Shown here in pieces: positions 9,832 through 34,329 of a stretch of DNA of 64,000 nt; position 1 is the first letter of the stretch, and each line of letters begins with the position of its first letter. Below the pieces are notes generated by a model, which was not told the DNA's origin, did no database searches, and was given only the letters and a program-made list of their open reading frames with translations. This stretch comes from Clostridia bacterium (GTDB taxonomy: Bacteria; Bacillota; Clostridia; Oscillospirales; Acutalibacteraceae), in NCBI GenBank assembly GCA_017473165.1, contig JAFUNA010000002.1, positions 1 to 64,000 on the forward strand, in the 5' to 3' direction. A program made the translations under genes and the position numbers.

Positions 9832-11307
9832 ATGTATATGGAAAATTATGAATTCTGGTTTGTTGTCGGCAGTCAGTTCCTTTACGGACCCGAGGTGCTT
9901 GACATCGTTGCCGAAAGAGCAGAGGAAATGGCTCAAAAAATGAACGAAAGCGGTCTTCTCCCCTGCAAGATAGTTTATAAAGTTACCGCAAAAACTCCCG
10001 AAGAAATTTCGGATGTTGTAAAAGCCGCAAATTATGACGATAAATGTGCGGGCATCATAACATGGATGCACACCTTTTCGCCTTCGAAAATGTGGCTGAA
10101 CGGTCTTAAAAATCTGCAAAAGCCCTACTGTCATTTTGCAACACAGTATAACAGAGATATACCAAATGAAGAGATTGACATGGATTTCATGAATCTCAAT
10201 CAGGCTGCACACGGCGACAGAGAACACGGCTTCATCGCTGCAAGACTCCGTGCACCCCGCAAGGTTATTATGGGCTACTGGCAGGACGAAAAGGTTCTTT
10301 GTGAGCTCGGTAAATGGATGCGTTCCGCAGTCGGTGCTGCATTTTCAAAGAGCCTCAAGGTTATGCGTTTCGGCGATAACATGAGAAACGTTGCCGTTAC
10401 CGAAGGCGATAAGGTCGGAGTTCAGGAAAAGCTCGGCTGGCAGGTAAACACCTGGCCCGTAGGCACACTCGTTGAATATATCAACGCAGTTACCGATGCC
10501 GAGGTTGATGCTATCATGGCTGAATATGCCGAAAAATATGATTTTGCAACAGACAATATTGATGCCGTTCGCTATCAGGCAAAAGAAGAAATTGCAATGA
10601 AGAAAATGCTTGACGAGCAGGGCTGCAAGGCATTCACAAATACTTTTGAGGATCTCCACGGCATGGAGCAGCTTCCCGGACTTGCAAGCCAGCGTCTTAT
10701 GGAGCAGGGCTACGGCTACGGCGGCGAGGGTGACTGGAAGGTTTCCGCTATGACAGCCGTGCTGAAAGCTATGACCGAAGGAATGAACGGCGGCTCGGCA
10801 TTCATGGAGGATTACACCTATAATCTTGCACCCGGTGCAGAATATTCTCTCGGTGCTCATATGCTTGAGGTTTGCCCCACTCTTGCGGCAGACAAACCCA
10901 GAATTGAGGTTCATCCCCTCGGAATCGGCGGCAAGGGCGACCCTGCAAGACTTGTTTTTGAAGGCAAAGCAGGAAACGCCGTTGTTGTGAGCCTTGTTGA
11001 CATGGGCGGCAGACTCAGAATGATTGTTCAGGATATTGAATGCGTAAAGCCCATTCTTCCCATGCCCAACCTTCCCGTTGCAAGAGTTATGTGGAGAGCG
11101 ATGCCCGACCTTTGCACAGGCGCAAAATGCTGGATTATCGCAGGCGGTGCACACCACACCGTTCTTTCATACGATGCGGATGCCCAAATGCTCCGTGACT
11201 TTGCAAGAATCATGGACATCGAATTTGTTCATATCAATAAAGATACAACTCCCGAAGGTCTTGAAAACGAGCTTTTCCTCAACGACCTTGCATGGAAGCT
11301 TAAATAA
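9832..11307 (+). CDS. araA: L-arabinose isomerase
   Basis: Isomerises L-arabinose to L-ribulose, the first step of arabinose use. It has 491 residues, close to the usual 490-500. The N-terminal FWFVVGSQFLYGPE, the Mn-site segment KEEIAMKKMLDE, and the C-terminal GGAHHTVLSYDADAQMLRDF are characteristic. AAAGGGTGATTTGAT precedes the ATG. It stands alone between a promoter and a perfect terminator: araB and araD are not adjacent, so they must lie elsewhere or the pathway is dispersed. Confidence 0.96.
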   Translation: MYMENYEFWFVVGSQFLYGPEVLDIVAERAEEMAQKMNESGLLPCKIVYKVTAKTPEEISDVVKAANYDDKCAGIITWMHTFSPSKMWLNGLKNLQKPYCHFATQYNRDIPNEEIDMDFMNLNQAAHGDREHGFIAARLRAPRKVIMGYWQDEKVLCELGKWMRSAVGAAFSKSLKVMRFGDNMRNVAVTEGDKVGVQEKLGWQVNTWPVGTLVEYINAVTDAEVDAIMAEYAEKYDFATDNIDAVRYQAKEEIAMKKMLDEQGCKAFTNTFEDLHGMEQLPGLASQRLMEQGYGYGGEGDWKVSAMTAVLKAMTEGMNGGSAFMEDYTYNLAPGAEYSLGAHMLEVCPTLAADKPRIEVHPLGIGGKGDPARLVFEGKAGNAVVVSLVDMGGRLRMIVQDIECVKPILPMPNLPVARVMWRAMPDLCTGAKCWIIAGGAHHTVLSYDADAQMLRDFARIMDIEFVHINKDTTPEGLENELFLNDLAWKLK

Positions 11308-21399: not shown

Positions 21400-21428
21400 T
21401 TGACATCGGACAAGCTTTTTAATATAAT
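21400..21428 (+). promoter_or_regulatory. Perfect consensus promoter of the ten-gene acyl-CoA/oxidoreductase operon
   Basis: TTGACA (21400-21405), 17-bp spacer, TATAAT (21423-21428): full consensus. No comparably good promoter lies inside the following 10.6 kb of tightly spaced genes. Confidence 0.92.
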
Positions 21429-21517
21429 ATAAGGAAACTTATAGTGCATAAGTATTTATTCATTTGCAAAACTTGCATATTCCGTCAGGAAATGCTGTTC
21501 AAAAAGGAGAGATTAGC

Positions 21518-22933
21518 ATGAAAAAAATCACAATCACAGACGCAACCCTCAGAGAGTGCGCACGCAGGGGTGACATTGCCCTCAGCTTCAAAGAAAAGCT
21601 TGAGATTGCAAAGCTCCTCGACAAGCTCAATATCGACGTTATCGAGGCGGCTCCCATTACCGACGAAAAAATCGATACCCTTGTTTTACGCACTATAAGT
21701 CCCCTCCTAAAGAACAGCATCCTATCCTGCCCCGTCGGCATCTCGGTTGAAGAAGCAAACAGAGCAATGAATTCCATTGCAGGTGCAAAAAAGCCCCGTC
21801 TTCTTGTTTCACTTCCCGTGTCGGCAGTTCAGATGGAATATTTTTATCACAAAAAGCCCGCAAAGATGCTTGAGCTCATTCAGAGCCTTACCGCTCACTG
21901 TGCAACGCTCTGCAATGACGTTGAGTTTGCTGCGGTTGATGCAACAAGAGCTGACAAGGCATATCTTTTTGAGGCTGTTAAAATCGCCATAGAAAACGGT
22001 GCAAAAACCGTGACGCTCTGCGACACCGCAGGTGCACTTCTTCCCGATGAATTCACCGCTCTTATCAATGAACTTTACGAAGCCGTTCCCGCTGCAAAGA
22101 ACGTTGTTTTGAGTGCTGAATGCAGCGATGCTCTCGACATGGCAAACGCCTGTGTATTTTCCTGCATTTCAGCAGGTGCGGCACAGATAAAAACCTGCAT
22201 CGGCAGCGAAGCACTTCCCGACCTTGAGCACGTTATGAAGGCTCTTCAGGTCAAAGGTCACACTCTTGACGTTACATACGGCGTTAACTCAATGGCAATC
22301 AACCATTCCGCAAATCTTATTCTCGGAATGACAAGCGACAGCCACAAGGGTGCTGCTTCTTTCGGCAATTCCGCCGCAGCATCCGCAAGCGGCGTTCTGC
22401 TTGACAACACAGCTGACATTGCAAAGGTCAGCAAGGCAATCGTTTCGCTCGGCTATGAGCTTTCAGAAGACGATACCGCAAAGGTGTTTGATGCTTTCAA
22501 AGAAATTGCAGGCAAAAAGCAGGTCGGTGCAAAAGAGCTTGATGCAATCATTGCAAACGTTGCCCATCAGGTTCCTCCCACCTACAGACTTCAGAGCTAC
22601 GTTATAAATTCCGGAAATCTTATTTCCTCAACCGCAAACATTGTTCTTGAAAAAGGCAGCAGAACCCTCAAGGATGTCTGCATGGGCGACGGTCCGATTG
22701 ATGCCGCATTCAGAACGGTTGAGCATATCATCGGTCACCACTATGAGCTTGACGATTTCCAGATTCAGTCCGTTACCGAAGGTCATGAGGCAATGGGCGA
22801 GGCTCTTGTAAAGCTCCGCTCAAACGGCAAGCTTTATTCAGGCAAAGGAATTTCAACCGATATCATCGGTGCAAGCATCATTGCTTATGTTAACGCACTT
22901 AACAAAATCGTTTATGAGGAGAAAGCTGAATGA
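21518..22933 (+). CDS. LeuA-like HMGL-domain protein lacking the metal-binding HxH motif
   Basis: A 471-residue protein with the layout of isopropylmalate/homocitrate synthases: an N-terminal HMGL barrel (TDATLRECARRGDIALSF, D8/R12/E13; CDTAGALLPDE at 168-178) and a C-terminal LeuA regulatory-type domain from about 355 (GDGPIDAAFRTVEHII, SVTEGHEAMGEALVKL, TDIIGASIIAYVNALNKI). In true family members a HxHND motif supplies two metal histidines; here the site reads AECSD (200-204). The metal Asn of the next motif appears to be D235, and the GEQ after TLRD is missing. Ordinary Claisen condensation is thus doubtful. AAAAGGAGAGATTAGC precedes the ATG. It is the first gene of the operon; its stop overlaps the next start (ATGA). 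Confidence 0.8.
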   Translation: MKKITITDATLRECARRGDIALSFKEKLEIAKLLDKLNIDVIEAAPITDEKIDTLVLRTISPLLKNSILSCPVGISVEEANRAMNSIAGAKKPRLLVSLPVSAVQMEYFYHKKPAKMLELIQSLTAHCATLCNDVEFAAVDATRADKAYLFEAVKIAIENGAKTVTLCDTAGALLPDEFTALINELYEAVPAAKNVVLSAECSDALDMANACVFSCISAGAAQIKTCIGSEALPDLEHVMKALQVKGHTLDVTYGVNSMAINHSANLILGMTSDSHKGAASFGNSAAASASGVLLDNTADIAKVSKAIVSLGYELSEDDTAKVFDAFKEIAGKKQVGAKELDAIIANVAHQVPPTYRLQSYVINSGNLISSTANIVLEKGSRTLKDVCMGDGPIDAAFRTVEHIIGHHYELDDFQIQSVTEGHEAMGEALVKLRSNGKLYSGKGISTDIIGASIIAYVNALNKIVYEEKAE

Positions 22934-25437
22934 AACTGTCATTTTCAACAAACGGGTGGCAGGAGCTTTCATGGGCTGAATTTGTAAACACCGCAAACGA
23001 CCTCGGCTTCAGCGGTATTGAAATCCACAACATAACAGATTCCAGATTCACAGGCTCGGATGCCCCCTTCAATAAAAACAATTCCGCAGCAACGGTACAC
23101 AAGCTGCTTGAAAATTCACTTTCAATCCCCTGCATCGATACCTTCTGCAATGTTGCAGACGAAAAAATTGCAGACGAAGGATTTGAAGAAATCGCAACCG
23201 CTATCGAAATTGCATCAAGAATAAGATGCCCCTATGTCAGAATTCATGCTTATGCAACGGGTGCAGAAAAGAAGGCTGAAGATTCAACCGTAATTTCTCT
23301 TATCGGCAGACTCATTGACAAGGCGGAGCAGGACAACGTTACACTCCTTGTTGAAACCGTCGGTATTTATGCCGACACATCAAGACTCCGTGACTTGCTC
23401 AATGTTTTCGCCTGCGACGCACTCGCAGCTCTCTGGGATATCAACCATCCCTACAGAGATTTTGGTGAAGAGCCCGACACAACAATCACAAACCTCGGTG
23501 CTTATATCAAGCACGTTCACGTCAAGGACTCGGTTATTGAAGACAGCAAGGTAAAATACAGACTCATCGGCGAAGGCGACCTTCCGCTCGGAACGATGAT
23601 AAGAGCTCTTGAATCGGTCAACTATGACGGCTTCCTTTCATATGAATGTCAGCCCGAAACAATCGAGGATTTCGGCATTGCGGAAATTGTTTTCCCCCAT
23701 TTCGTCAATGCTATCAGCAATTATGACACGGCAAAGAAAAGCGAAGAGCTTCTCTACACAAACCGTGACGGAAGCGGCAAATTCGTTTGGGAAAAATACA
23801 AGCTTGTCAATAAAACCTTCTCGCAGGTTCTTGACACAATGGTTGAAAAGTTCCCCGACCAGATTGCATATAAGTACACAACTCTCGACTACACAAGAAC
23901 ATATTCACAGTTCAGAGATGACGTTGACAACTGTGCCAGAGCACTCATTGCTCTGGGCGTAAAGCCCGGCGACAAGGTTGCGGTCTGGCTCACAAACCTT
24001 CCCCAGTGGTTTATCACCTTCTGGGCTGCAACAAAAATCGGCGCGGTTCTCGTTACCGTCAACACGGCGTATAAAATCCACGAGATTGAGTATCTTCTCC
24101 GTCAGTCCGATACTCACACACTTATCACAATTGAATCCTGCCTTGACTCAAACTATGCAGAGTCAATCGCAACGCTCTGCCCCGAGCTTGAGGTTGCCGT
24201 TCCCGGCAAGCCTCTCCACTGCCGCAGACTTCCCTTCCTTCGCAACGTTATAACCGTAGGCTACCGCCAGAAGGGCTGCCTTACCTGGGAAGAGGCAATG
24301 GATATGGCGGTCAGAGTTCCCATTGAAGAAGTTTACCGCAGAGCAGCCGCAGTTGACTGCCACGATGTAGCAAATATGCAGTACACCTCGGGAACAACAG
24401 GCTTCCCCAAGGGCGTTATGCTCACCCACTACAATATCGTTAACAACGGCAAAATCATCGGCGACAGAATGGATTTATCCACAGCCGACAGAATGATGAT
24501 TCAGGTGCCCATGTTCCATTGCTTCGGCATGGTGCTTTCCATGACATCCATGATGACCCACGGCGGAACAATGTCACCGCTCCCCTATTTCTCGGCTAAA
24601 TCATCGCTTGCCTGCGTTAATCAGGAGCATATCACCTGCTTCAACGGTGTTCCCACCATGTTCATTGCAATGTTCCAGCATGAGGACTTTGCAAAGACAG
24701 ATTTCTCATATATGAGAACAGGCATCATGGCGGGTGCGAATTGTCCGCCCGAACTGATGAAGCGTGCCGCCGCCGAAATGAACATGAGAGAAATCATCAG
24801 CGTTTACGGTCAGACGGAAGCTTCTCCCGGCTGCACTATGGGCGAGGTTAACGAATCGCTCGAGGACAGAACAGAAACAGTCGGCAGCGCATTCCCCCAC
24901 ATCGAATGTAAGATTATTGACCCCGAAACCGGCGAAGATTTGCCCGACGGCGAGAACGGCGAATTCGTTGCAAGGGGCTACAATATAATGAAGGGCTATT
25001 ACAAAATGCCCAAAGCCACCGAAGCCGCAATCGACAAAGACGGCTGGCTTCACAGCGGTGACATTGCCTGCAGAAGACCTGACGGCTATTATCTCATAAC
25101 AGGTCGACTTAAAGACATGATTATCCGCGGCGGCGAAAACATCTATCCCCGTGAAATTGAAGAATTCATCTTCACTCATGAAAAAGTTCAGGACGTTCAG
25201 GTTATCGGTGTTCCCGATAAGCGTTACGGCGAAGAAATCATGGCTTGCATAATCCTTAAAGAGGGCGAATCGATGACAGAAAAAGAAATGAGCGACTACA
25301 TCATGTCGCACATGGCTCGTCACAAAGTTCCCCGCTATATCGAATTTGTAAGCGATTTCCCCAAAAACGCTGCTGGCAAGATTCTCAAATACAAAATGAG
25401 AGAAGAAGCCACTAAAAAATACGGACTTGAAAAATAA
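22930..25437 (+). CDS. Fusion of sugar isomerase/epimerase TIM barrel and acyl-CoA ligase
   Basis: An 835-residue two-domain protein. Residues 1-265 form an AP-endonuclease-2/IolE-type TIM barrel with likely metal ligands E142 (LLVETVG), D170 (LWDINHPY), H197 (HVHVKD) and E239 (SYECQPE). Residues 290-835 are a complete adenylate-forming ligase: YTSGTTGFPKGVMLTH (485-500), VYGQTEASPG, GWLHSGD, GRLKDMIIRGGENIYPREIE and the catalytic lysine in NAAGKILKY (K817). The ligase resembles fatty-acyl or aryl-acid CoA ligases. The ATG overlaps the stop of the LeuA-like gene, so the two are translationally coupled. The frame is continuous with no internal start of note, so the fusion looks real. Confidence 0.85.
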   Translation: MKLSFSTNGWQELSWAEFVNTANDLGFSGIEIHNITDSRFTGSDAPFNKNNSAATVHKLLENSLSIPCIDTFCNVADEKIADEGFEEIATAIEIASRIRCPYVRIHAYATGAEKKAEDSTVISLIGRLIDKAEQDNVTLLVETVGIYADTSRLRDLLNVFACDALAALWDINHPYRDFGEEPDTTITNLGAYIKHVHVKDSVIEDSKVKYRLIGEGDLPLGTMIRALESVNYDGFLSYECQPETIEDFGIAEIVFPHFVNAISNYDTAKKSEELLYTNRDGSGKFVWEKYKLVNKTFSQVLDTMVEKFPDQIAYKYTTLDYTRTYSQFRDDVDNCARALIALGVKPGDKVAVWLTNLPQWFITFWAATKIGAVLVTVNTAYKIHEIEYLLRQSDTHTLITIESCLDSNYAESIATLCPELEVAVPGKPLHCRRLPFLRNVITVGYRQKGCLTWEEAMDMAVRVPIEEVYRRAAAVDCHDVANMQYTSGTTGFPKGVMLTHYNIVNNGKIIGDRMDLSTADRMMIQVPMFHCFGMVLSMTSMMTHGGTMSPLPYFSAKSSLACVNQEHITCFNGVPTMFIAMFQHEDFAKTDFSYMRTGIMAGANCPPELMKRAAAEMNMREIISVYGQTEASPGCTMGEVNESLEDRTETVGSAFPHIECKIIDPETGEDLPDGENGEFVARGYNIMKGYYKMPKATEAAIDKDGWLHSGDIACRRPDGYYLITGRLKDMIIRGGENIYPREIEEFIFTHEKVQDVQVIGVPDKRYGEEIMACIILKEGESMTEKEMSDYIMSHMARHKVPRYIEFVSDFPKNAAGKILKYKMREEATKKYGLEK

Positions 25438-25465
25438 TGACTATATTACCGAAAGGGTGTTTTAA

Positions 25466-26530
25466 ATGTTAAATATCAAAATTGAGAGAACAACTGCTCC
25501 CAAACAGAAGCCTGATGAAAGCAATCTCGGCTTCGGCAAAATTTTCACCGACCACATGTTTATCATGAATTACACCGAAGGTCAGGGCTGGCATGATCCC
25601 CGTATAGTTCCTTACGGCAATCTTTCCCTCTCCCCCGCTTGCATGGTTTTCCACTATGGCCAGGAAATGTTCGAAGGTCTTAAGGCTTATAAGGGAGCTG
25701 ACGGCGAAGTTCGTCTTTTCCGTCCCGAAATGAACGCAAAGAGAACGAACGACACAAACAAGCGTCTTTGCATTCCCGAGCTTCCCGTTGAGGATTTTGT
25801 TCAGGCTGTAAGCGAAGTTGTAAGAGTTGACAGAGATTGGATTCCCTCCGCTCCCGGCACATCTCTCTACATCCGCCCCTTTATCATTGCAACCGATGAT
25901 TTCCTTGGCGTTGCTCCTTCAAAAACATATCTCTTTATCGTTATCCTCTCCCCCTCGGGTGCTTACTATTCAAGCGGTCTTGCTCCCGTAGGCATCTGGA
26001 TTGAAGACGATTATGTCAGAGCTGTTAAGGGCGGCATGGGCTTTGCAAAAACAGGCGGCAACTACGCAGCAAGCCTTGCAGCACAGGTTAAGGCTCACGA
26101 TGACGGCTATTCACAGGTACTCTGGCTTGACGGCGTTGAGAGAAAATACATTGAAGAAGTCGGTGCAATGAACATCTTCTTCAAAATTAACGGAACAATC
26201 GTTACTCCCATGCTTAACGGCAGCATTCTTCCCGGTATTACAAGAAACTCCGTAATCGAGCTTTGCAAGAGCTGGGGTCTTCCCGTTGAGGAAAGAAAGA
26301 TTTCCGTTGACGAGCTTATTGAAGCACAGAAGAGCGGTGCTCTTGAAGAATGCTTCGGCACAGGCACTGCAGCCGTTATCTCACCCGTAGGCAAGCTTCG
26401 CTATAAAGACGACGTTATGACAATCAACGGCGGCGAAATCGGCGAAATCAGCCAGAAGCTCTATGACACCGTTACAGGTATTCAGGGCGGCACCTGCGAA
26501 GACAAATTCGGCTGGGTAACAGTTCTTTAA
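25466..26530 (+). CDS. ilvE: Branched-chain amino acid aminotransferase
   Basis: Fold type IV PLP aminotransferase, 354 residues, which interconverts valine, leucine and isoleucine with their 2-oxoacids. Family signatures are HYGQEMFEGLKAY, TSLYIRPFI, the Schiff-base lysine in GFAKTGGNYAASL, YIEEVGAMNIFF, and GSILPGITRNSVIEL. GAAAGGGTGTTTTAA precedes the ATG. Its position between an acyl-CoA ligase and a 2-oxoacid:ferredoxin oxidoreductase suggests it feeds or drains that enzyme. Confidence 0.95.
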   Translation: MLNIKIERTTAPKQKPDESNLGFGKIFTDHMFIMNYTEGQGWHDPRIVPYGNLSLSPACMVFHYGQEMFEGLKAYKGADGEVRLFRPEMNAKRTNDTNKRLCIPELPVEDFVQAVSEVVRVDRDWIPSAPGTSLYIRPFIIATDDFLGVAPSKTYLFIVILSPSGAYYSSGLAPVGIWIEDDYVRAVKGGMGFAKTGGNYAASLAAQVKAHDDGYSQVLWLDGVERKYIEEVGAMNIFFKINGTIVTPMLNGSILPGITRNSVIELCKSWGLPVEERKISVDELIEAQKSGALEECFGTGTAAVISPVGKLRYKDDVMTINGGEIGEISQKLYDTVTGIQGGTCEDKFGWVTVL

Positions 26531-26533
26531 TCT

Positions 26534-27229
26534 ATGGAAAGCAAAAGAATCACGGTTTTTGCAGGTCACTACGGCAGCGGCAAAACAAACATTGCCGTTA
26601 ACTACGCTTTGAAGCTGCGTGAGAAGTTTGACAAGGTTAACATTGCCGACCTCGACATTGTTAACCCCTACTTCCGCTCAAAGGACAGCGAAAAATATCT
26701 TGAAGAAAAAGGAATTCATCTTATTTCTTCGGAATATGCAAATTCAAACGTTGATGTTCCCGCAATACCTGCAGAAGCCTATGCAATAATCGACGATTTG
26801 TCACTGAGAGCGGTTATTGACGTCGGCGGTGATGACAGAGGTGCTCTTGCTCTCGGAAGATACGTTCCCGCCATTCTTGAGCAGAACGATTACGAATTTC
26901 TGCTTGTTGTCAATAAATACAGACCTCTTACTCCAAACTGTGCCGCAACGCTTGAGGTTATGAGAGAAATCGAAACCGCCTGCGGAATGAAATTTACAGG
27001 CATTGTCAACAACTCCAACCTCGGAGATGAAACAGACGAAGAAACCGTTCTTGCTTCCGTTGACTACGCAAACGAAATTTCATCGGCAACGGGTCTGCCG
27101 ATAAGAATGACAACCGTCAAAGAAGAACTTTACGATAAACTTAAAGATAAAGTTAACAACTGCACCCCGATTAAACTTTACGTTAAACAATCGTGGGCAA
27201 AACAGGAGGAAGATTTATGGCAAAAGTAA
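26534..27229 (+). CDS. ParA/MinD-like P-loop ATPase linked to the oxidoreductase
   Basis: A 231-residue SIMIBI-class ATPase: ITVFAGHYGSGKTNIAVNYA holds a variant Walker A (GHYGSGKT, residues 11-18), then DLDIVNPYFRSKD (switch), VIDVGGDDRGA (Walker B region) and the base-recognition-like VVNKYRP. No membrane or partner domain is visible. It starts 3 bp after ilvE and overlaps the ferredoxin gene by 13 bp. The context suggests a maturation, metal-insertion or activation role for the oxidoreductase; this is inference. Confidence 0.8.
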   Translation: MESKRITVFAGHYGSGKTNIAVNYALKLREKFDKVNIADLDIVNPYFRSKDSEKYLEEKGIHLISSEYANSNVDVPAIPAEAYAIIDDLSLRAVIDVGGDDRGALALGRYVPAILEQNDYEFLLVVNKYRPLTPNCAATLEVMREIETACGMKFTGIVNNSNLGDETDEETVLASVDYANEISSATGLPIRMTTVKEELYDKLKDKVNNCTPIKLYVKQSWAKQEEDLWQK

Positions 27230-27423
27230 CCTTTAATATTGACCGCTGCAAAGGCTGCGGTCTTTGCGTGGGAGCTTGCCCCAAAAAGATTGTGGCACTC
27301 CTCAAGGATCAAATCAATGCCAAGGGCTATCATCCCGCAGGCATCACCGACCAGTCAGCTTGCATCGGCTGTGCATTCTGTGCAACCATGTGCCCCGACT
27401 GTGTAATTACTGTTGAGAAATAA
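27217..27423 (+). CDS. 2-oxoacid:ferredoxin oxidoreductase, ferredoxin (delta) subunit
   Basis: A 68-residue 2[4Fe-4S] ferredoxin with CKGCGLCVGACP and CIGCAFCATMCP. It carries electrons between the oxidoreductase and the ferredoxin pool. The ATG at 27217 follows AGGAGGAAGATTT, and lies inside the end of the ATPase gene. It is the first of four subunit genes in delta-alpha-beta-gamma order. Confidence 0.93.
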   Translation: MAKVTFNIDRCKGCGLCVGACPKKIVALLKDQINAKGYHPAGITDQSACIGCAFCATMCPDCVITVEK

Positions 27424-27434
27424 GGAGAAAGAAC

Positions 27435-28505
27435 ATGGCTGAAAAAGTTTTGATGAAGGGTAACGAAGCTCTTGCAGAAGCTGCCATCATGGCAGGCTGC
27501 CGCCATTACTTCGGTTATCCCATTACACCTCAAACAGAAATCGCTGCATATATGGCAAAAAGAATGCCTCTTATCGGCGGAACATTTTTACAGGCTGAAA
27601 GCGAAATTGCCGCAATCAACATGATTTACGGTGCTGCCGCAACAGGCAAAAGAGCAATGACTTCAAGCTCAAGCCCCGGAATCGCACTCAAGAGCGAAGG
27701 TATTTCTTACCTTGCAGGCTCCGACCTTCCCGCTCTTATCATCAACGTACAGAGAGGCGGCCCCGGTCTCGGCGGTATTCAGCCCTCACAGTCAGACTAT
27801 TTCCAGGCAACAAAGAGTGCAGGTCACGGTGACTTCCATCTTATCGTTCTTGCTCCCGCTTCCGTACAGGAAATGGTTAACCTCACATTCAAAGGCTTTG
27901 ACCTTGCTGAAAAATACAGAATGCCCGCAATGCTTCTTTCGGACGGCACAATGGGTCAGATGATGGAGCCTGTTTCACTTGACATGGGCGAAATCACCGA
28001 ATATGACAAGTCGGGCTGGGCTGCCTGCGGCACAAACTGCGAGCGTCCTCACAACGTTGTAAACTCACTCTTCATCGATCCCGAAGAGCTTGAAAAATAC
28101 AACATCGAACGCTATGAGCGTTATGCAAAAATTGAAGAAACAGAAGTTATGTATGACGAATACCGCATGGACGATGCTGAAATCTGCATTGTTGCCTACG
28201 GCGTTGCTGCAAGAGTTTCGCAGAATGCAATCGATAAGGCTCGCGAAAAGGGCATCAAGGTCGGCATGATTCGTCCCATCACCCTCTGGCCCTTCCCCAA
28301 GGCTGTTCTCAATGCTGCTGCCGACAAGGTTAAGGCATTCATCAGCGTTGAGCTTTCAATGGGTCAGATGATTGAGGACATCGAGCTTGCAACCCGTTGC
28401 AAGAAACCCGTTCTTCTCTGCAACCGTGTTGGCGGTATGATTCCCACAACAGAAGACGTTCTTAATTCTATCGATAAAGCAAATTCCGTCGGAGGTGACA
28501 AATAA
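27435..28505 (+). CDS. 2-oxoacid:ferredoxin oxidoreductase alpha subunit (VorB/KorA type)
   Basis: A 356-residue subunit beginning with LMKGNEALAEAAIMAGC and the signature FGYPITPQTEIAAYMA, then TSSSSPGIALKSEGISYLA and QRGGPGLGGIQPSQSDY. With the beta subunit it forms the thiamine-diphosphate site for oxidative decarboxylation of 2-oxoacids to acyl-CoA, or the reverse carboxylation. Substrate (2-oxoisovalerate versus 2-oxoglutarate) cannot be settled from sequence; the adjoining ilvE favours branched-chain 2-oxoacids. AAGGAGAAAGAAC precedes the ATG. Confidence 0.93.
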   Translation: MAEKVLMKGNEALAEAAIMAGCRHYFGYPITPQTEIAAYMAKRMPLIGGTFLQAESEIAAINMIYGAAATGKRAMTSSSSPGIALKSEGISYLAGSDLPALIINVQRGGPGLGGIQPSQSDYFQATKSAGHGDFHLIVLAPASVQEMVNLTFKGFDLAEKYRMPAMLLSDGTMGQMMEPVSLDMGEITEYDKSGWAACGTNCERPHNVVNSLFIDPEELEKYNIERYERYAKIEETEVMYDEYRMDDAEICIVAYGVAARVSQNAIDKAREKGIKVGMIRPITLWPFPKAVLNAAADKVKAFISVELSMGQMIEDIELATRCKKPVLLCNRVGGMIPTTEDVLNSIDKANSVGGDK

Positions 28506-29257
28506 TGATAGTTTTTGAAAAACCCAAGGCACTTGCCGATGTACCTCTTCATTATTGCCCCGGCTGCACACACGGTATCATTCACCGTCTTGTTGCCGAA
28601 GTTATTGACGAACTCGGCATCGAAGGCAAAACCGTTGGCGTTGCACCCGTTGGCTGCTCCGTTTTCGCATACAATTATTTTAACTGCGACATGATTGAGG
28701 CTGCTCACGGCAGAGCTCCCGCAGTTGCAACAGGCGTTAAGCGTTCATATCCCGAAAACATTGTTTTCACATATCAGGGTGACGGCGACCTTGCCGCTAT
28801 CGGTACCGCAGAAACCGTTCACTCCGCTGCAAGAGGCGAAAATATCACAATTATTTTCGTTAATAACGCAATCTACGGCATGACAGGCGGTCAGATGGCT
28901 CCCACCACTCTCCCCGGTCAGGTTACACAGACTTCACCCTACGGCAGAAACCCCGAGCAGGTTGGTCTTCCCGTTAAGGTTTGCGAGCTTCTTTCAAACG
29001 TTGACGGTGCAACATACCTTGAAAGAGTTGCCGTTAACAACGTTAAAAACGTTAAAAATGCAAAGAAGGCTATCAAAAAAGCTTTCCAGAATCAGCTTGA
29101 AGGCAAAGGCTTCTCTCTTGTTGAAGTTCTTTCCACCTGCCCCACAAACTGGGGTCTTAAGCCCGACAAGGCTCTTGAATGGCTTGAGGAAAACATGATT
29201 CCTTATTATCCCCTTGGCGTATACAAGGACAAGACAGCTGAAAAGGAGGCAGAATAA
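28505..29257 (+). CDS. 2-oxoacid:ferredoxin oxidoreductase beta subunit (VorA/KorB type)
   Basis: A 250-residue ThDP-binding subunit: YCPGCTHGIIHRL near the N-terminus, VGCSVFAYNYFNCD, the ThDP motif YQGDGDLAAIGTAE and NNAIYGMTGGQMAPTT. The cysteines C19, C22 and one further on probably hold the [4Fe-4S] cluster of this subunit type. Its ATG shares one base with the alpha-subunit stop (TAATG). Confidence 0.94.
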   Translation: MIVFEKPKALADVPLHYCPGCTHGIIHRLVAEVIDELGIEGKTVGVAPVGCSVFAYNYFNCDMIEAAHGRAPAVATGVKRSYPENIVFTYQGDGDLAAIGTAETVHSAARGENITIIFVNNAIYGMTGGQMAPTTLPGQVTQTSPYGRNPEQVGLPVKVCELLSNVDGATYLERVAVNNVKNVKNAKKAIKKAFQNQLEGKGFSLVEVLSTCPTNWGLKPDKALEWLEENMIPYYPLGVYKDKTAEKEAE

Positions 29258-29259
29258 TT

Positions 29260-29790
29260 ATGACACATGAAATTCTTCTTGCCGGTTTCGGCGGTCAGGG
29301 AATCCTTTTCTCGGGTAAATTCCTTGCATATGACGGTCTTCTTGAAGACAGAGAAGTAAGCTGGCTCCCCTCCTACGGTCCCGAAATGAGAGGCGGCACC
29401 TGCAACTGCTCAATTATCCTCAGCGACACAAAAATCGGTTCACCCATCGTTTCAAACCCCAACGTTCTTGTTGCAATGAACCTGCCCTCACTTGATAAGT
29501 TTGAGAAATCGGCTGTTCCCGGTGCAAAAATCTTTGTTGACAGCTCACTCATCGACCGCAAGGTTGAAAGAGATGATGTTGAGGTTTATTATATTCCCGC
29601 AACAAAGCTTGCATCCGACGAAAACCTTCCCGGACTTGCAAACATGATCATGATTGGTCACGTTATCGCAAAGGCAGGCGTTATGCCCTACGAAAACGTT
29701 GAAACAACAATGAAAAAGCTTGTTCCTGCAAAGAAGCAGAACCTTATCGAACTCAACATCAAGGCTGTTGAGCTTGGATATAACTATTAA
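29260..29790 (+). CDS. 2-oxoacid:ferredoxin oxidoreductase gamma subunit
   Basis: A 176-residue gamma domain: EILLAGFGGQGILFSGKFLA, SWLPSYGPEMRGGTCNCSI and VAMNLPSLDKFE are the family signature, binding CoA in the full enzyme. AAAAGGAGGCAGAATAATT precedes the ATG. It completes the four-subunit oxidoreductase. Confidence 0.95.
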   Translation: MTHEILLAGFGGQGILFSGKFLAYDGLLEDREVSWLPSYGPEMRGGTCNCSIILSDTKIGSPIVSNPNVLVAMNLPSLDKFEKSAVPGAKIFVDSSLIDRKVERDDVEVYYIPATKLASDENLPGLANMIMIGHVIAKAGVMPYENVETTMKKLVPAKKQNLIELNIKAVELGYNY

Positions 29791-29811
29791 TTATTTTCAG
29801 GAGGAACCCAC

Positions 29812-30360
29812 ATGCTTGAATTAAAAGAAATAGGCCTGCGAGTTGCTTCCCTTCGCGAAACCTGCGGCATCAGTTCTGCAGAAATGGCTGAAAAACTTGA
29901 AATTTCAGAAGAAAACTACATATTATTTGAGCACGGCGAATACGATTTCGCAATCAGCACACTCAACAACATTGCTCTCATTCTCGGCGTTGATATTCTT
30001 GACATAATCAGCGGCGAATCCCCCCGCCTTTCCAACTGCACGGTTGTTAAAAACGGCAAGGGCTTTGTTGTTAACAGAAACCCCGGATATGTTTTCTCAC
30101 ACCTTGCATATACTTTCAGAAACAAAAAAGCCGAACCCTTCCTTGTTACAATCGACCCTACGGGAAATCCCCCTGTAATGGACGAACACGAAGGACAGGA
30201 ATTCGACTATGTTCTTTCCGGCAAGCTCCATCTTTATATCGGTGATATCTGCTATGAATTAAATGAAGGCGACAGTGCATATTTTGATTCCACAATCCCC
30301 CACGCACACAAAAACGTGGGCGATACCCAGGCGCAGTTCATCGCACTTGTGTTAAAATAA
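29812..30360 (+). CDS. XRE-family regulator with C-terminal cupin domain
   Basis: A 182-residue protein. Residues 1-60 form a lambda-repressor-type helix-turn-helix (VASLRETCGISSAEMAEKL, then NYILFEHGEYDFAISTLNNI). Residues 95-182 form a cupin with HEGQEFDYVLSGKLHLYIG and DSTIPHAHKNVGD, a small-molecule sensor. This is the layout of the PuuR/SutR group. It lies inside the operon, 21 bp after the gamma subunit and 18 bp before the second ligase, so it probably autoregulates the operon or senses its acid or amino acid product. Confidence 0.9.
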   Translation: MLELKEIGLRVASLRETCGISSAEMAEKLEISEENYILFEHGEYDFAISTLNNIALILGVDILDIISGESPRLSNCTVVKNGKGFVVNRNPGYVFSHLAYTFRNKKAEPFLVTIDPTGNPPVMDEHEGQEFDYVLSGKLHLYIGDICYELNEGDSAYFDSTIPHAHKNVGDTQAQFIALVLK

Positions 30361-30378
30361 AATTCAGGAGTCGAAATA

Positions 30379-32058
30379 ATGGCTATTTACGAAAAATTCA
30401 TAGGCAGAAGCAGAGAATCGTTCATTTCTCTCAAAGACTGCCGTGAAAACTTTAAAATTACTTACGAAAACGACTTTAACTTCGCTTATGATGTTATTGA
30501 CGTTCTCGGAACAGAAAAACCCGATAAGCTTGCTCTTCTCTATGTTTCAAACATCGGTGAAGAAAAAAGATTTACCTTCGGTGACATGAAACGTCTTTCA
30601 GACAAAGCGGCTAACTACTTTGTTTCAGAAGGTGTCAAGAAGGGCGATCCAGTTCTTCTCATTCTTAAGAGAAGCTATCTTTTCTGGATAATCACACTTG
30701 CACTCAACAAAATCGGTGCAATCATGGTTCCCGCATCAAATATGCTTAAGGGTAAAGACTATGTTTACCGCTGCAACAAAGCAAAAATCAAGTATGCGGT
30801 TATTACAGGCGACGATGAATGCACAGAGGATTTTGACTCCGTTTTTGACCAGTACGAAACAATTGAAAAGCGTTTTGTAACAAAGCATAAGCCCGTCAAA
30901 GGCTGGATTGACTTTGAAGAAGGCTTTGAAAAAGCAAGTGAAGAATGGACAAGACCCACAGGCGATGCAGCCACAACCGTTGATGACACAATGATTATCA
31001 ACTTCTCATCGGGCACAACAGGCTATCCCAAAATCATTACCCACGATTTCAGATATCCCCTCGGTCACATTATGACCGGAGTTTTCTGGCACCACGTTGT
31101 TGACGGCGGAATTCATTTCACTGTTTCCGACTCAGGCTGGGCAAAATCACTCTGGGGTAAGTATTACGGTCAATGGATGGGCGAAACTGCAAACTTTGTT
31201 TACGATTTCGATAAATTTGACGGTGCTGACATACTTTCAAAGCTTGAAAAGTACAGAATCACAACCTTCTGCGTTCCTCCCACCATGTACCGCCTTATGC
31301 TTCAGAACGATGTAAGCAAATATGACCTTTCGTCAATCACCCATTGCTGCACCGCAGGCGAAGCACTCAATGCGGATATCTTCAATAAGTGGAAGGAAGC
31401 AACGGGTCTTGAAATTCACGAAGGCTTCGGCATGAGTGAAACTCCGGTAAGCATCTGCACTATTTACCCCTGGACAAAGCCCATTCCGGGTGCAATCGGA
31501 TTCCCAGCTCCCGGTCTTGATGTTCATATTCTTGACGAGAACGGCAATCACTGCCAAAGAGGTACAATCGGCGAAATCTGCATTAAATCTCCCTCACCCG
31601 AAGAACATCCCTGCGGCGTTCTTTCAGGCTATAACTTCAGCAAGGAAGAAACTGCTGAAGCCTACAGAGGCGGATTCTTCCACACAGGCGACCTTGCCTA
31701 CCGTGATGAACAGGGTAGATTTGTTTATTTCGGCAGAAACGATGACGTTATCAAATCATCGGGCTACAGAATCGGACCCTTTGAAATTGAAAGCGTTATG
31801 CTTGAGCATCCTGCCGTTCTTGAGGTTGCGGTAACAGGCGTTCCCGACCCCGTAAGAGGCTTTGTTGTTAAGGCAACGGTTGTTCTCCGCCCCGGCTATG
31901 AAGGCTCTGATGAACTTGTTAAAGAGCTTCAGAACTATGTTAAGACCAACACTGCACCCTATAAATATCCCAGAATTGTTGAATTCGTTGACGAGCTGCC
32001 CAAAACCTTCAGCGGCAAGGTAAGACGAGTTGCAATCAGACAAGCGGATAATAAATAA
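30379..32058 (+). CDS. Acyl-CoA synthetase (AMP-forming, acetyl/medium-chain type)
   Basis: A 559-residue adenylate-forming enzyme that activates a carboxylic acid with ATP and CoA. It has INFSSGTTGYPKIITHDF, GFGMSETPVS, GFFHTGDLAYRDEQGRF, GRNDDVIKSSGYRIGPFEIE and the lysine in PKTFSGKVRR. The overall pattern (WAKSLWGKYYGQWMGE, CVPPTMYRLML) is that of acetyl-CoA synthetase-like medium-chain/branched-acid ligases. It is the last gene of the operon and is followed by a terminator. Confidence 0.9.
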   Translation: MAIYEKFIGRSRESFISLKDCRENFKITYENDFNFAYDVIDVLGTEKPDKLALLYVSNIGEEKRFTFGDMKRLSDKAANYFVSEGVKKGDPVLLILKRSYLFWIITLALNKIGAIMVPASNMLKGKDYVYRCNKAKIKYAVITGDDECTEDFDSVFDQYETIEKRFVTKHKPVKGWIDFEEGFEKASEEWTRPTGDAATTVDDTMIINFSSGTTGYPKIITHDFRYPLGHIMTGVFWHHVVDGGIHFTVSDSGWAKSLWGKYYGQWMGETANFVYDFDKFDGADILSKLEKYRITTFCVPPTMYRLMLQNDVSKYDLSSITHCCTAGEALNADIFNKWKEATGLEIHEGFGMSETPVSICTIYPWTKPIPGAIGFPAPGLDVHILDENGNHCQRGTIGEICIKSPSPEEHPCGVLSGYNFSKEETAEAYRGGFFHTGDLAYRDEQGRFVYFGRNDDVIKSSGYRIGPFEIESVMLEHPAVLEVAVTGVPDPVRGFVVKATVVLRPGYEGSDELVKELQNYVKTNTAPYKYPRIVEFVDELPKTFSGKVRRVAIRQADNK

Positions 32059-32062
32059 AAAG

Positions 32063-32110
32063 AAAAAAACGGAGGCACTTCAAATAAAGAAGTCGCTTCC
32101 GTTTTTCACT
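32063..32110 (+). terminator. Terminator of the ten-gene operon
   Basis: AAAAACGGAGGC-ACTTC and GAAGT-C-GCTTCCGTTTTT form a long stem around AAATAAA, followed by a T-run. Confidence 0.88.
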
Positions 32111-32241: not shown

Positions 32242-34329
32242 TTATATTCCGAAAAGGAGCTCACCATATGAGGGATAAGGCCAGAAGTCTGCGGAAGTAA
32301 TTTTTTCCGCCGCATCAACATCTGCACGCAGGCTTTCCATTACTGGAATTATATCGGTTTTGAATTCGTCTGCCTGAACGGCAGCGTTTTCTTTTTTAAG
32401 GGATTTTATCTTCTTTTCAAGTTCGTTAACCTTTTCATAAATCGAAACAGAAAGTGCTGAAAGTTTTTTGGTTGTTTTTTCTTCATAGGTGCAGTCAGCG
32501 GACGCAAAAACTGATTTCTTTGCCGCCGCATTTGTGCAGATTTCGCCCGAATAGCTGCTGATTGCAGGAAGGATATCCTTATTTACCATGTCAATCATCG
32601 TGCGGGCCTCAATATTGAGAGTCTTGCAGTAGTTTTCAAGGTAAATTTCCTGACGTGCTTCAAGCTCTGCTTTGGTGAAAACCTTGTGCTCTTCAAAAAG
32701 TCTGACATTCTTTTCGTCTGTCATATGTGCAAGAGCATCGGGTGTTGTTTTGAGATTTGAAAGTCCCCTTCTCTCCGCCTCTTTTGTCCATTCGTCACCG
32801 TAGCCGTTTCCGTTGAAGATGATTCTCTTGTGGTCTTTTATTGTCTTGCGGATAAGGTTATGAAGTGCATCCTCAAAGTTATCAACGTTTTCAAGTCTGT
32901 CAGCGTAGGATTTGAGCGACTCCGCAACGGCTGTGTTGAGAACGATGTTTGAGCTTGAAATAGAGCTTGCAGAGCCAAGCATTCTGAATTCAAACTTGTT
33001 ACCTGTAAAAGCAAAGGGAGAAGTTCTGTTTCTGTCTGTTGTGTCCTTGGGGAATCTGGGAAGAACGTGAACACCGACCTTCATCTGTACGGTTTCGTTG
33101 GCTTCATATGCCGTTTCATTTTCGATTGACTCGAGAATTGCGTTCAGTTCATCACCGAGGAACATTGAAACAATTGCAGGAGGAGCTTCCGCAGCACCCA
33201 GACGGTGGTCATTGCCCGCACTTGCAACGGAAATGCGAAGCAAATCCTGATAGTTGTCAACTGCCTTGATAACCGCACAAAGGAAAAGAAGAAACTGTGC
33301 GTTGTCATAGGGTGTTTCGCCGGGCTCAAGGAGATTCATTCCGTCTTTTGTAGAGATTGACCAGTTATTGTGCTTACCGCTGCCGCTGACACCCTTGAAG
33401 GGTTTTTCGTGAAGAAGGCAAACCATGTCGTGCTTCTTTGCAACCTTCTGCATAATTTCCATTATGAGCTGATTATGGTCGGTAGCGATATTTGTTGTTG
33501 AGAAAATCGGAGCAAGCTCATGCTGTGCGGGAGCGGCTTCGTTATGCTCTGTTTTGGCAAGCACACCGAGCTTCCAGAGCTCCTCGTTAAGGTCCTTCAT
33601 ATAAGCCGCAACACGGGGCTTGATTGAGCCGAAATAGTGGTCGTCAAGCTCCTGCCCCTTGGGAGGTCTTGCACCGAAAAGTGTTCTGCCCGTAAAAATA
33701 AGATCTTTTCTTTTATTGTAAAGCTCTTTGTCAACGAGGAAATATTCCTGCTCCGCACCAACGGTTGTTTTGACGCTTTTGAGGTCATCCTGTCCGAAAA
33801 GCTTAAGAATTCTTACAGCCTGCTTGCTGATTGCTTCCATTGAACGAAGGAGAGGTGTTTTCATGTCAAGAGCTTCGCCGCCGTAGGAGCAGAAAGCGGT
33901 GGGAATGCAGAGCACGCCCTCTTTGATGAACGCATATGAGGTAGGGTCCCATGCGGTATAGCCTCTTGCTTCAAAGGTTGCACGAAGTCCGCCCGAGGGA
34001 AAGCTTGATGCGTCGGATTCACCCTTAACAAGCTCCTTGCCCGAGAATTCCATGATAACCGAACCGTCCTGACAGGGTGAAATAAAGCTGTCGTGCTTTT
34101 CGGCGGTTATGCCTGTCATGGGCTGAAACCAATGGGTATAGTGCGTTGCACCGTTTTCGATTGCCCAATCCTTCATTGCATTGGCAACAACATTGGCAAT
34201 GGCTATATCAAGACGCTTACCGTCCTGAATAGTCTTTTTCATCGCCTTATATGTATCCTTGGGCAGTCTTGACCTCATGGCTTTGTCATCAAAAACCATA
34301 CAGCTGAAATAATCGGGAACGCTTTTCAT
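32242..34329 (-). CDS. glnN: Glutamine synthetase type III
   Basis: A 695-residue GSIII making glutamine from glutamate, ammonia and ATP; this family is typical of Bacteroides, cyanobacteria and Clostridia. It has [45 protein letters not shown] and [13 protein letters not shown]. The length matches the family (about 700) and exceeds type I (about 470). AGGAGAGTAGATT precedes the ATG. It is monocistronic with its own promoter. GSIII suggests nitrogen assimilation from ammonia, common in rumen and gut Clostridia. Confidence 0.97.

Follow-up and report, generated by a model that had tools for sequence, protein, structure and literature searches.

The window analysed here, a 64,000-nucleotide stretch of Clostridia bacterium contig JAFUNA010000002.1, contains a set of ten same-direction genes (21518-32058) whose probable function is the subject of this report. 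In order, they encode a LeuA-like protein, a fusion of a xylose-isomerase-like TIM barrel with an acyl-CoA ligase, a branched-chain amino acid aminotransferase (BCAT), a P-loop ATPase, the four subunits of a 2-oxoacid:ferredoxin oxidoreductase of the 2-ketoisovalerate type (VOR), an XRE regulator and a second acyl-CoA ligase. All of these genes and their flanking signals lie on the forward strand. No gap is longer than 28 bp and three pairs of genes overlap, the successive junctions being a 4-bp overlap, 28 bp, 3 bp, a 13-bp overlap, 11 bp, a 1-bp overlap, 2 bp, 21 bp and 18 bp. A preliminary description of this DNA had set the ten closely packed and partly overlapping genes between one perfect promoter and one terminator, and our analysis agrees. 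It had also proposed a search for the same gene order in other genomes, and the identical ten-gene order recurs in eight further loci, all distinct (L032, L127, L128, L129, which shares its contig with L210, L144, L196, L209 and L213). On the strength of layout and recurrence, the ten genes are judged to be a genuine operon and part of a module widespread in gut Clostridia.

The promoter is a sigma-70 site (TTGACA-17-TATAAT, 21400-21428) that matches the consensus at 12 of 12 positions. It is the sole 12/12 site in the 13 kb scanned, in which weaker sites numbered 19 against a shuffled mean of 16.3, and its -35 and -10 regions are kept across the aligned upstream regions of seven close-relative loci, two of which are one contig. 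Just 3' of the -10 lies a perfect palindrome (ACTTAT-AGTGC-ATAAGT, 21437-21453), which overlaps the expected transcription start and may be the operator of a repressor. The window and six of the seven aligned relatives (L129 and L210 being one contig) carry its core, CTTATAGTGCATAAG, letter for letter, a match counted without a null. No copy of this exact core was found in any other fetched locus, and exact copies stand solely before the ten-gene operon in close relatives. That the regulator encoded by gene 9 binds the palindrome is a guess. At the other end, an intrinsic terminator with a T run at its 3' side (32065-32106) folds with -23.4 kcal/mol, compared to a shuffled mean of -6.2 (z -7.8); it is missing from the output list of the simple scan that listed the promoter.

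Gene 1 (21518-22933) starts at ATG 21518, which is preceded by AAGGAG and was preferred over TTG 21464. Its product matches both the HMGL-like barrel (PF00682, 104.7 bits) and the LeuA_dimer domain (PF08502, 104.3 bits) over cut-off, but fails the best LeuA equivalog model (304.4 bits, cut-off 532). For comparison with true 2-isopropylmalate synthases, 31 of 36 LeuA-like loci and the window were aligned with LeuA from nine of the 15 fetched LeuA loci of the same order, the remaining loci having been removed by an open-frame filter. Relative to these nine, the LeuA-like clade has none of the motifs R-D-G-E-Q, H-x-H and N-G-x-G-E-R-A-G-N, and a catalytic segment of about 28 residues is missing. 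Both histidines of H-x-H, or the R-D pair, are found in 0 of 57 LeuA-like sequences (window included) and in 9 of 9 true LeuA. The pattern of conservation is inverted as well. Mean pairwise identity among the LeuA-like proteins (32 rows) is 42% in the barrel and 66% in the LeuA_dimer domain, compared to 66% and 46%, respectively, among the true LeuA (9 rows). Judged from these alignments, gene 1 encodes a pseudoenzyme from which the LeuA catalytic site is gone; a working synthase is ruled out, as the site is gone in every sequence checked. In one locus (L206, gene near 10001) a stop codon lies within the LeuA-like frame.

Gene 2 (22930-25437) encodes the fusion of the TIM barrel with an AMP-forming acyl-CoA ligase. 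The LeuA-like gene is directly followed by a TIM-ligase gene in all 119 unique loci; here and below, only exact copies were dropped from unique counts, and three pairs of loci share contigs (L129/L210, L033/L155 and L039/L181). We sampled 197 genomes of the order, of which 43 carry a LeuA-like gene by reading of the match list and 154 do not; this set was tallied by hand from match tables with end rows omitted, and three of its members (G142, G160 and G171) rest on fragments. Within it, the TIM-ligase stands behind the LeuA-like gene in 36 of 36 loci (20/20 and 16/16) from 35 of the 43 genomes. The same holds for 80 of 80 loci from named genomes, which are the best 80 of at least 588 confirmed matches and thus biased to close relatives. 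By their record titles these are nearly all metagenome-assembled and mostly from rumen or gut Clostridia; a few are labelled Eggerthellaceae, Lentisphaeria or Lentisphaerae, Abditibacteriota or Salinivirgaceae, for which binning errors are possible. About 41 further genomes of the order have a TIM-ligase without a LeuA-like gene, and no other neighbour family was common to four or more of 24 such loci.

The barrel half of gene 2 matches PF01261 (AP_endonuc_2, 91.4 bits) and retains E142, D170, H197 and E239, which we take from the family to be its metal ligands. All four are likewise present in 35 of the 94 unique fusions that accompany a LeuA-like gene and in 19 of 19 that do not, while at most one of the four residues remains in 21 of the 94 coupled fusions. 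Key ligase motif residues are found in 114 of 114 fusion rows (counted before exact duplicates were dropped), including those with a decayed metal site. A profile search of solved structures with the LeuA-like protein and the TIM barrel as queries returned just superfamily-level kin of the barrel (Art22, AsbF, IolI and D-tagatose 3-epimerase). The intact sites, together with the Amidohydro_2 protein that several loci encode after the fusion, are what would be expected if the LeuA-like protein, the barrel and the relatives' amidohydrolase catalysed an extra step, for example the supply of the acid from another precursor. We consider this unlikely, given that the LeuA-like proteins are without the LeuA metal site and catalytic segment and that barrel sites have eroded beside intact ligases. 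Instead, the sensor domain and the ligase seem to be maintained by selection that has relaxed on both barrels, because the LeuA_dimer domain and the ligase motifs are conserved while the LeuA-like barrel and the TIM site decay.

Several variants surround this pair. A protein of about 270 residues (10197-11009 in L201; Amidohydro_2 by Pfam) is encoded directly 3' of the TIM-ligase in L201, L047, L171, L176, L183, L189 and L191, and after BCAT in L131. In L069 (8066-10631) barrel and ligase are adjacent separate genes, an unfused form of gene 2. In L047 and L145 the leucine pair is followed by genes that, by eye and from their first residues, resemble O-acetylhomoserine sulfhydrylase and MetA. 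A plasmid search with gene 2 gave nothing above 60% identity and was not used.

The relatives often split parts of the module into units, each behind its own T-box leader. T-boxes turn genes on when their cognate amino acid is short. An Rfam T-box at gathering score lies directly before the LeuA-like gene in 9 of 14 loci scanned, and CUC occupies the specifier position in each of the seven leaders displayed in the covariance alignments. Of the 116 unique LeuA-like genes that have 250 nt or more of upstream sequence, 78 are preceded by a T-box motif. Every parsed specifier in this set is a leucine codon (67/67; CUC 55, CUG 12), and 11 unparsed ones read CTC or CTG by eye. Specifiers were read after removal of exact duplicates with a parser that requires pairing of the stem I basal helix; it replaced a looser first version that gave off-by-one readings (CAT and TAT for ATC). 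The parser is not biased towards leucine, since elsewhere it yields isoleucine and valine. Before the pairs of XRE regulator and ligase in the same clusters, which are described below, it read Ile 28 times and Val 24 times (52 of 54 parsed). The other two are misreads, TAA and CGA (L160 and L166), both ATC under the earlier parser, by frame or directly; three more were unparsed, of which L139 reads ATC by eye and two are cut off. Leucine specifiers also precede the TIM-ligases without a LeuA-like gene (9/9 parsed, two unparsed) and true LeuA genes of the same order (5/5 parsed, one unparsed). The odd cases are a GCG before the ligase of L043, read from a poor motif, and single unparsed motifs before one VorA and one VorC gene.

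One locus (L193) displays the whole arrangement: an Ile T-box with an XRE-ligase pair, a Val T-box with a second such pair, and a Leu T-box with the LeuA-like and TIM-ligase genes, followed by BCAT, the ATPase and VOR; Rfam itself reports the first and the third of these T-boxes. L144 and L032, whose ten genes run in the same order as in the window, have a Leu T-box ahead of gene 1. As such leaders respond to amino acid shortage, they suggest that the module is biosynthetic. Because the T-boxes of the fusion's relatives are specific for leucine, we also infer that the fusion serves as the leucine arm and that its ligase half is an isovalerate-CoA ligase.

Carriers of the module have commonly lost the classical route. 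A leuB match over cut-off is found in 2 of the 43 LeuA-like genomes and in 111 of the 154 others (Fisher 2e-16; the tally leaves out second weak matches of G016, G025, G061 and G087), and in 1 of the 25 LeuA-like genomes that are at least 90% complete. For ilvC the numbers are 5 of 43 and 87 of 154 (8e-8). In the window's genus, ilvD occurs in 1 of 13 near-complete genomes and a LeuA-family match in all 13. We used leuB as the marker and dropped leuC, whose matches include aconitase-sized frames, with no genome over cut-off. The window's own genome (G000) has an ilv operon, ilvA-ridA-ilvB-ilvN-ilvC-ilvD (L207, G000:C30 4449-11033). In the sister genome G206 (L208, G206:C14 3623-14658) a leuA-leuC-leuD-leuB block stands between ridA and ilvB that is missing from the G000 operon. 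In these two operons ilvC, ilvD, leuB and leuA are supported by models, and the other genes were named from reading the proteins. The G000 strain thus appears able to make valine and isoleucine but not leucine, a half-way case, although G000 is 88% complete and a leu operon elsewhere in it is possible. It still carries the ten-gene operon, of which the opening part is the leucine module in other loci. A T-box-like motif was seen by pattern search before ilvA in both L207 and L208, below the Rfam threshold.

The enzymes needed for the remaining conversion are encoded by genes 3 to 8. Gene 3 (25466-26530) is a BCAT of the IlvE type II (NF009897, 509.7 bits, cut-off 307). Gene 4 (26534-27229) encodes a MinD/ParA-like P-loop ATPase with weak ParA/CbiA matches under the Pfam cut-offs, and gene 5 (27217-27423) a two-cluster ferredoxin (Fer4), the oxidoreductase delta subunit, with weak PorD/OorD similarity under cut-offs. 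The alpha subunit (gene 6, 27435-28505) passes the VorB model (NF005507, 541.5 bits, cut-off 399); the thiamine pyrophosphate-binding beta subunit (gene 7, 28505-29257; TPP_enzyme_C, with a GDG...NN stretch in the translation), the gamma subunit (gene 8, 29260-29790; POR) and the ferredoxin score below the cut-offs of their respective NCBIfam models. In most loci that have VOR, whether or not they contain a LeuA-like gene, the ATPase gene comes before those for ferredoxin and VOR; among 20 VOR loci from genomes outside the LeuA-like set it lies 5' of ferredoxin-VOR in 17, and two of the other three end at a contig edge. By this association the ATPase belongs to the oxidoreductase core, and the idea of a gene foreign to the pathway was rejected.

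VOR is not fixed in the module. Among the 44 unique wide-flank loci, VOR occurs in 23 and a single-chain pyruvate:ferredoxin oxidoreductase (PFOR) in 9, so that 32 have either. The single-chain enzyme may substitute for VOR: L170 keeps the LeuA-like, TIM-ligase and BCAT genes with PFOR in the place of VOR. PFOR also lies directly behind the LeuA-like/TIM-ligase pair in L148, L155, L163, L184, L185, L190, L205 and others. Matches of 25-33% to VOR subunits beside the pair were considered as a further oxidoreductase and rejected, as Pfam and length identify them as single-chain PFOR.

T-boxes and neighbours together point to a branched-chain substrate for VOR and to the reductive direction. That the enzyme is mainly a 2-oxoglutarate or pyruvate synthase, with the ligases as chance neighbours, would agree with how common VOR beta orthologues are (120 of the 197 genomes, from a hand-made list), yet VOR adjoins Ile- or Val-T-box ligases and BCAT in many loci and the VorB model is passed; we regard the idea as highly improbable. 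The same enzymes can also run oxidatively, and the available portion of a Bacteroidales screen describes BCAT and VOR in that direction (PMC11300592). The operon could then ferment branched-chain amino acids, with the ligases recycling or releasing the acids. The Leu, Ile and Val T-boxes of the relatives and the absence of leuB or ilvC from most carriers speak against this, as do the ligases, which are AMP-forming, a type that from family knowledge favours acid activation. Fermentation is therefore very unlikely in our judgement, and for the living cell the synthetic direction is favoured on account of the T-boxes and the loss of the classical pathway.

Gene 9 (29812-30360) encodes an XRE helix-turn-helix protein with a cupin domain (Pfam), and gene 10 (30379-32058) a short- or medium-chain, branched-chain acyl-CoA ligase whose closest solved structure is MacsMa (3etc; 623.8 bits, residues 11-557). 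The relatives likewise pair an XRE regulator with a gene-10-type ligase immediately behind it. The excerpts available of PMC10455477 give 2-methylbutyrate as the preferred substrate of MacsMa, and those of PMC10026030 state that MbcS accepts 2-methylbutyrate and isobutyrate and takes isovalerate poorly. Gene 10 is predicted to activate isobutyrate and 2-methylbutyrate. On a tree of the ligases, four label changes account for the 42 rows that bear an Ile or Val label, and gene 10 falls into a third clade (14 rows, 100/100 support), in which no XRE gene has a T-box directly before it; a long-branch warning applies to the join of this clade to the two outermost rows. The fetched stretches with a ligase of the gene 10 clade carry just one such ligase and MbcS likewise takes two acids, so this type may serve both isoleucine and valine.

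The resemblance to MacsMa and MbcS also raises the possibility that the acids are salvaged for branched-chain membrane lipids, with amino acids secondary. In Staphylococcus aureus, according to the portion seen of PMC10026030, MbcS supplies 2-methylbutyryl- and isobutyryl-CoA to lipid synthesis. Lipid priming, however, would need neither an oxidoreductase nor BCAT, each amino acid has its own specifier, and most carriers are without leuB over cut-off; we give lipid salvage very little credence.

Taken together, we consider it highly probable that the module rebuilds leucine, valine and isoleucine from branched short-chain acids produced by neighbours, with gene 1 as a leucine sensor of gene 2. 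In the proposed route, the ligase half of gene 2 would convert isovalerate, ATP and CoA to isovaleryl-CoA. Genes 5 to 8, aided by the partner ATPase of gene 4, would carboxylate this with CO2 and reduced ferredoxin to 2-oxoisocaproate, and BCAT (gene 3) would aminate the latter to leucine. Gene 10 would bring 2-methylbutyrate and isobutyrate into the same route, the resulting 2-oxoacids being aminated to isoleucine or valine. The preliminary description had already named the sequence from branched acid through acyl-CoA and 2-oxoacid to amino acid, which the T-boxes of the relatives and the loss of the classical pathway now back. Its further idea of an extended route, in which the LeuA-like protein, the fusion and the ATPase stood outside any such pathway, finds no support. 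Without a LeuA catalytic site the first is unlikely to catalyse an extra step, by its T-boxes the ligase of the second would be the leucine arm, and the third accompanies VOR, so that all three can be placed within the pathway. That description was to be refuted if the first two genes never accompanied the oxidoreductase in conserved neighbourhoods; they do occur with it, in 51 of the 119 unique loci, many loci being cut short.

The LeuA_dimer domain binds leucine in LeuA, as stated in the portions at hand of PMC10464499 and PMC1919377. Given the obligate pairing, the Leu T-boxes and the kept sensor domain, gene 1 has most likely been retained to bind leucine and, through contact with gene 2, to report it to the ligase. 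Its old feedback domain would thereby guard the first step of the replacement route. A more specific version, tentative and in our view slightly more doubtful than convincing, is that a LeuA lost its activity but survived for the sake of its allosteric domain when isovalerate carboxylation took over leucine synthesis. As a separate leucine-sensing protein it would inhibit the new committed enzyme, the isovalerate-CoA ligase, with the decaying TIM barrel of the latter as its probable docking site, and feedback control would have moved between unrelated pathways.

Several observations weigh against the synthetic reading or limit its reach. A T-box is missing from the window, where even a threshold of E 10 gave none upstream of gene 1, and no Rfam T-box was found in the near relatives L127-L130, for which reason the amino acids are assigned in the window by homology. 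The motif is likewise missing from 38 of the 116 unique LeuA-like genes. Neither VOR nor PFOR is nearby in 12 of the 44 unique wide-flank loci. Conversely, VOR orthologues occur in 81 of the 154 genomes without a LeuA-like gene, 31 of them with ilvC, so that VOR alone is not diagnostic. Seven LeuA-like genomes (G011, G016, G080, G093, G106, G153 and G171) have a leuB-family protein of 252-268 bits (cut-off 353), which might be a divergent LeuB. The TIM-ligase without a LeuA-like gene is unlinked to leuB loss (leuB in 26 of 41, p 0.48). The sister G206 has the full classical operon in addition to the ten-gene operon, and G089 and G192 are similar with respect to leuB. Since G000 keeps ilvBNCD and should make valine and isoleucine, gene 10 is not obviously needed there, and on the MbcS NCBIfam model gene 10 reaches 421.7 bits, with the cut-off at 850. 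Lastly, the proposed route does not account for the TIM barrel or for the amidohydrolase of some relatives.

Two neighbouring features of the window may be recorded. Convergent with the operon, a 695-residue protein is encoded on the reverse strand (32242-34329) that resembles a type III glutamine synthetase by eye, without a database search. Genes for tRNA-Leu (CAA) and tRNA-Lys (TTT) lie on the reverse strand at 884-1105.

If the module works as proposed, its gene set and a specifier-predicted arm for each amino acid would make a rumen pathway of the 1960s directly testable. Many gut and rumen Clostridia that are annotated as branched-chain amino acid auxotrophs would be prototrophs supplied with branched acids, a matter of interest for isoacid feeding and for models of cross-feeding in the gut. 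The pseudoenzyme encoded by gene 1, if confirmed, would offer a clear example of an enzyme retained solely for its sensor domain. Within the open-licence literature, which leaves most subscription journals outside the search, we found no paper on the assignment of these genes, on the T-box arms or on a LeuA pseudoenzyme. A 2020 paper, in the part available (PMC7709123), treats a reversal that would lead from branched acids to amino acids as unproven and as possible only in theory, by way of a ferredoxin oxidoreductase.

The components themselves have known counterparts. With 2-isopropylmalate synthase, gene 1 shares the barrel fold and the LeuA_dimer domain but has neither the RDGEQ and HxH motifs nor the segment of about 28 residues, and its conservation has shifted to the sensor domain. 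MacsMa and MbcS are AMP-forming, like gene 10, which scores under the MbcS cut-off and sits with an oxidoreductase and BCAT. Alpha, beta, gamma and ferredoxin subunits are shared with known VOR, whereas the window's set is predicted to act reductively and has a gene for a partner P-loop ATPase. The T-box-controlled leu and ilv operons share the CUC leucine specifier with the relatives' LeuA-like genes; acid ligases are among the genes so controlled in the relatives, and the window is without a T-box. The closest parallel is physiological. The accessible part of PMC7356843 cites the work of Allison, Robinson, Bryant and others (1962-1971) for carboxylation pathways of isovalerate, isobutyrate and 2-methylbutyrate in rumen bacteria. 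The predicted conversion, from branched acid through 2-oxoacid to leucine, valine or isoleucine, is the same here, and the gene set for it is complete. The conversion would thus be old physiology, to which the ten-gene locus adds, as the new elements, the genes, the T-box arms of the relatives and a LeuA pseudoenzyme.

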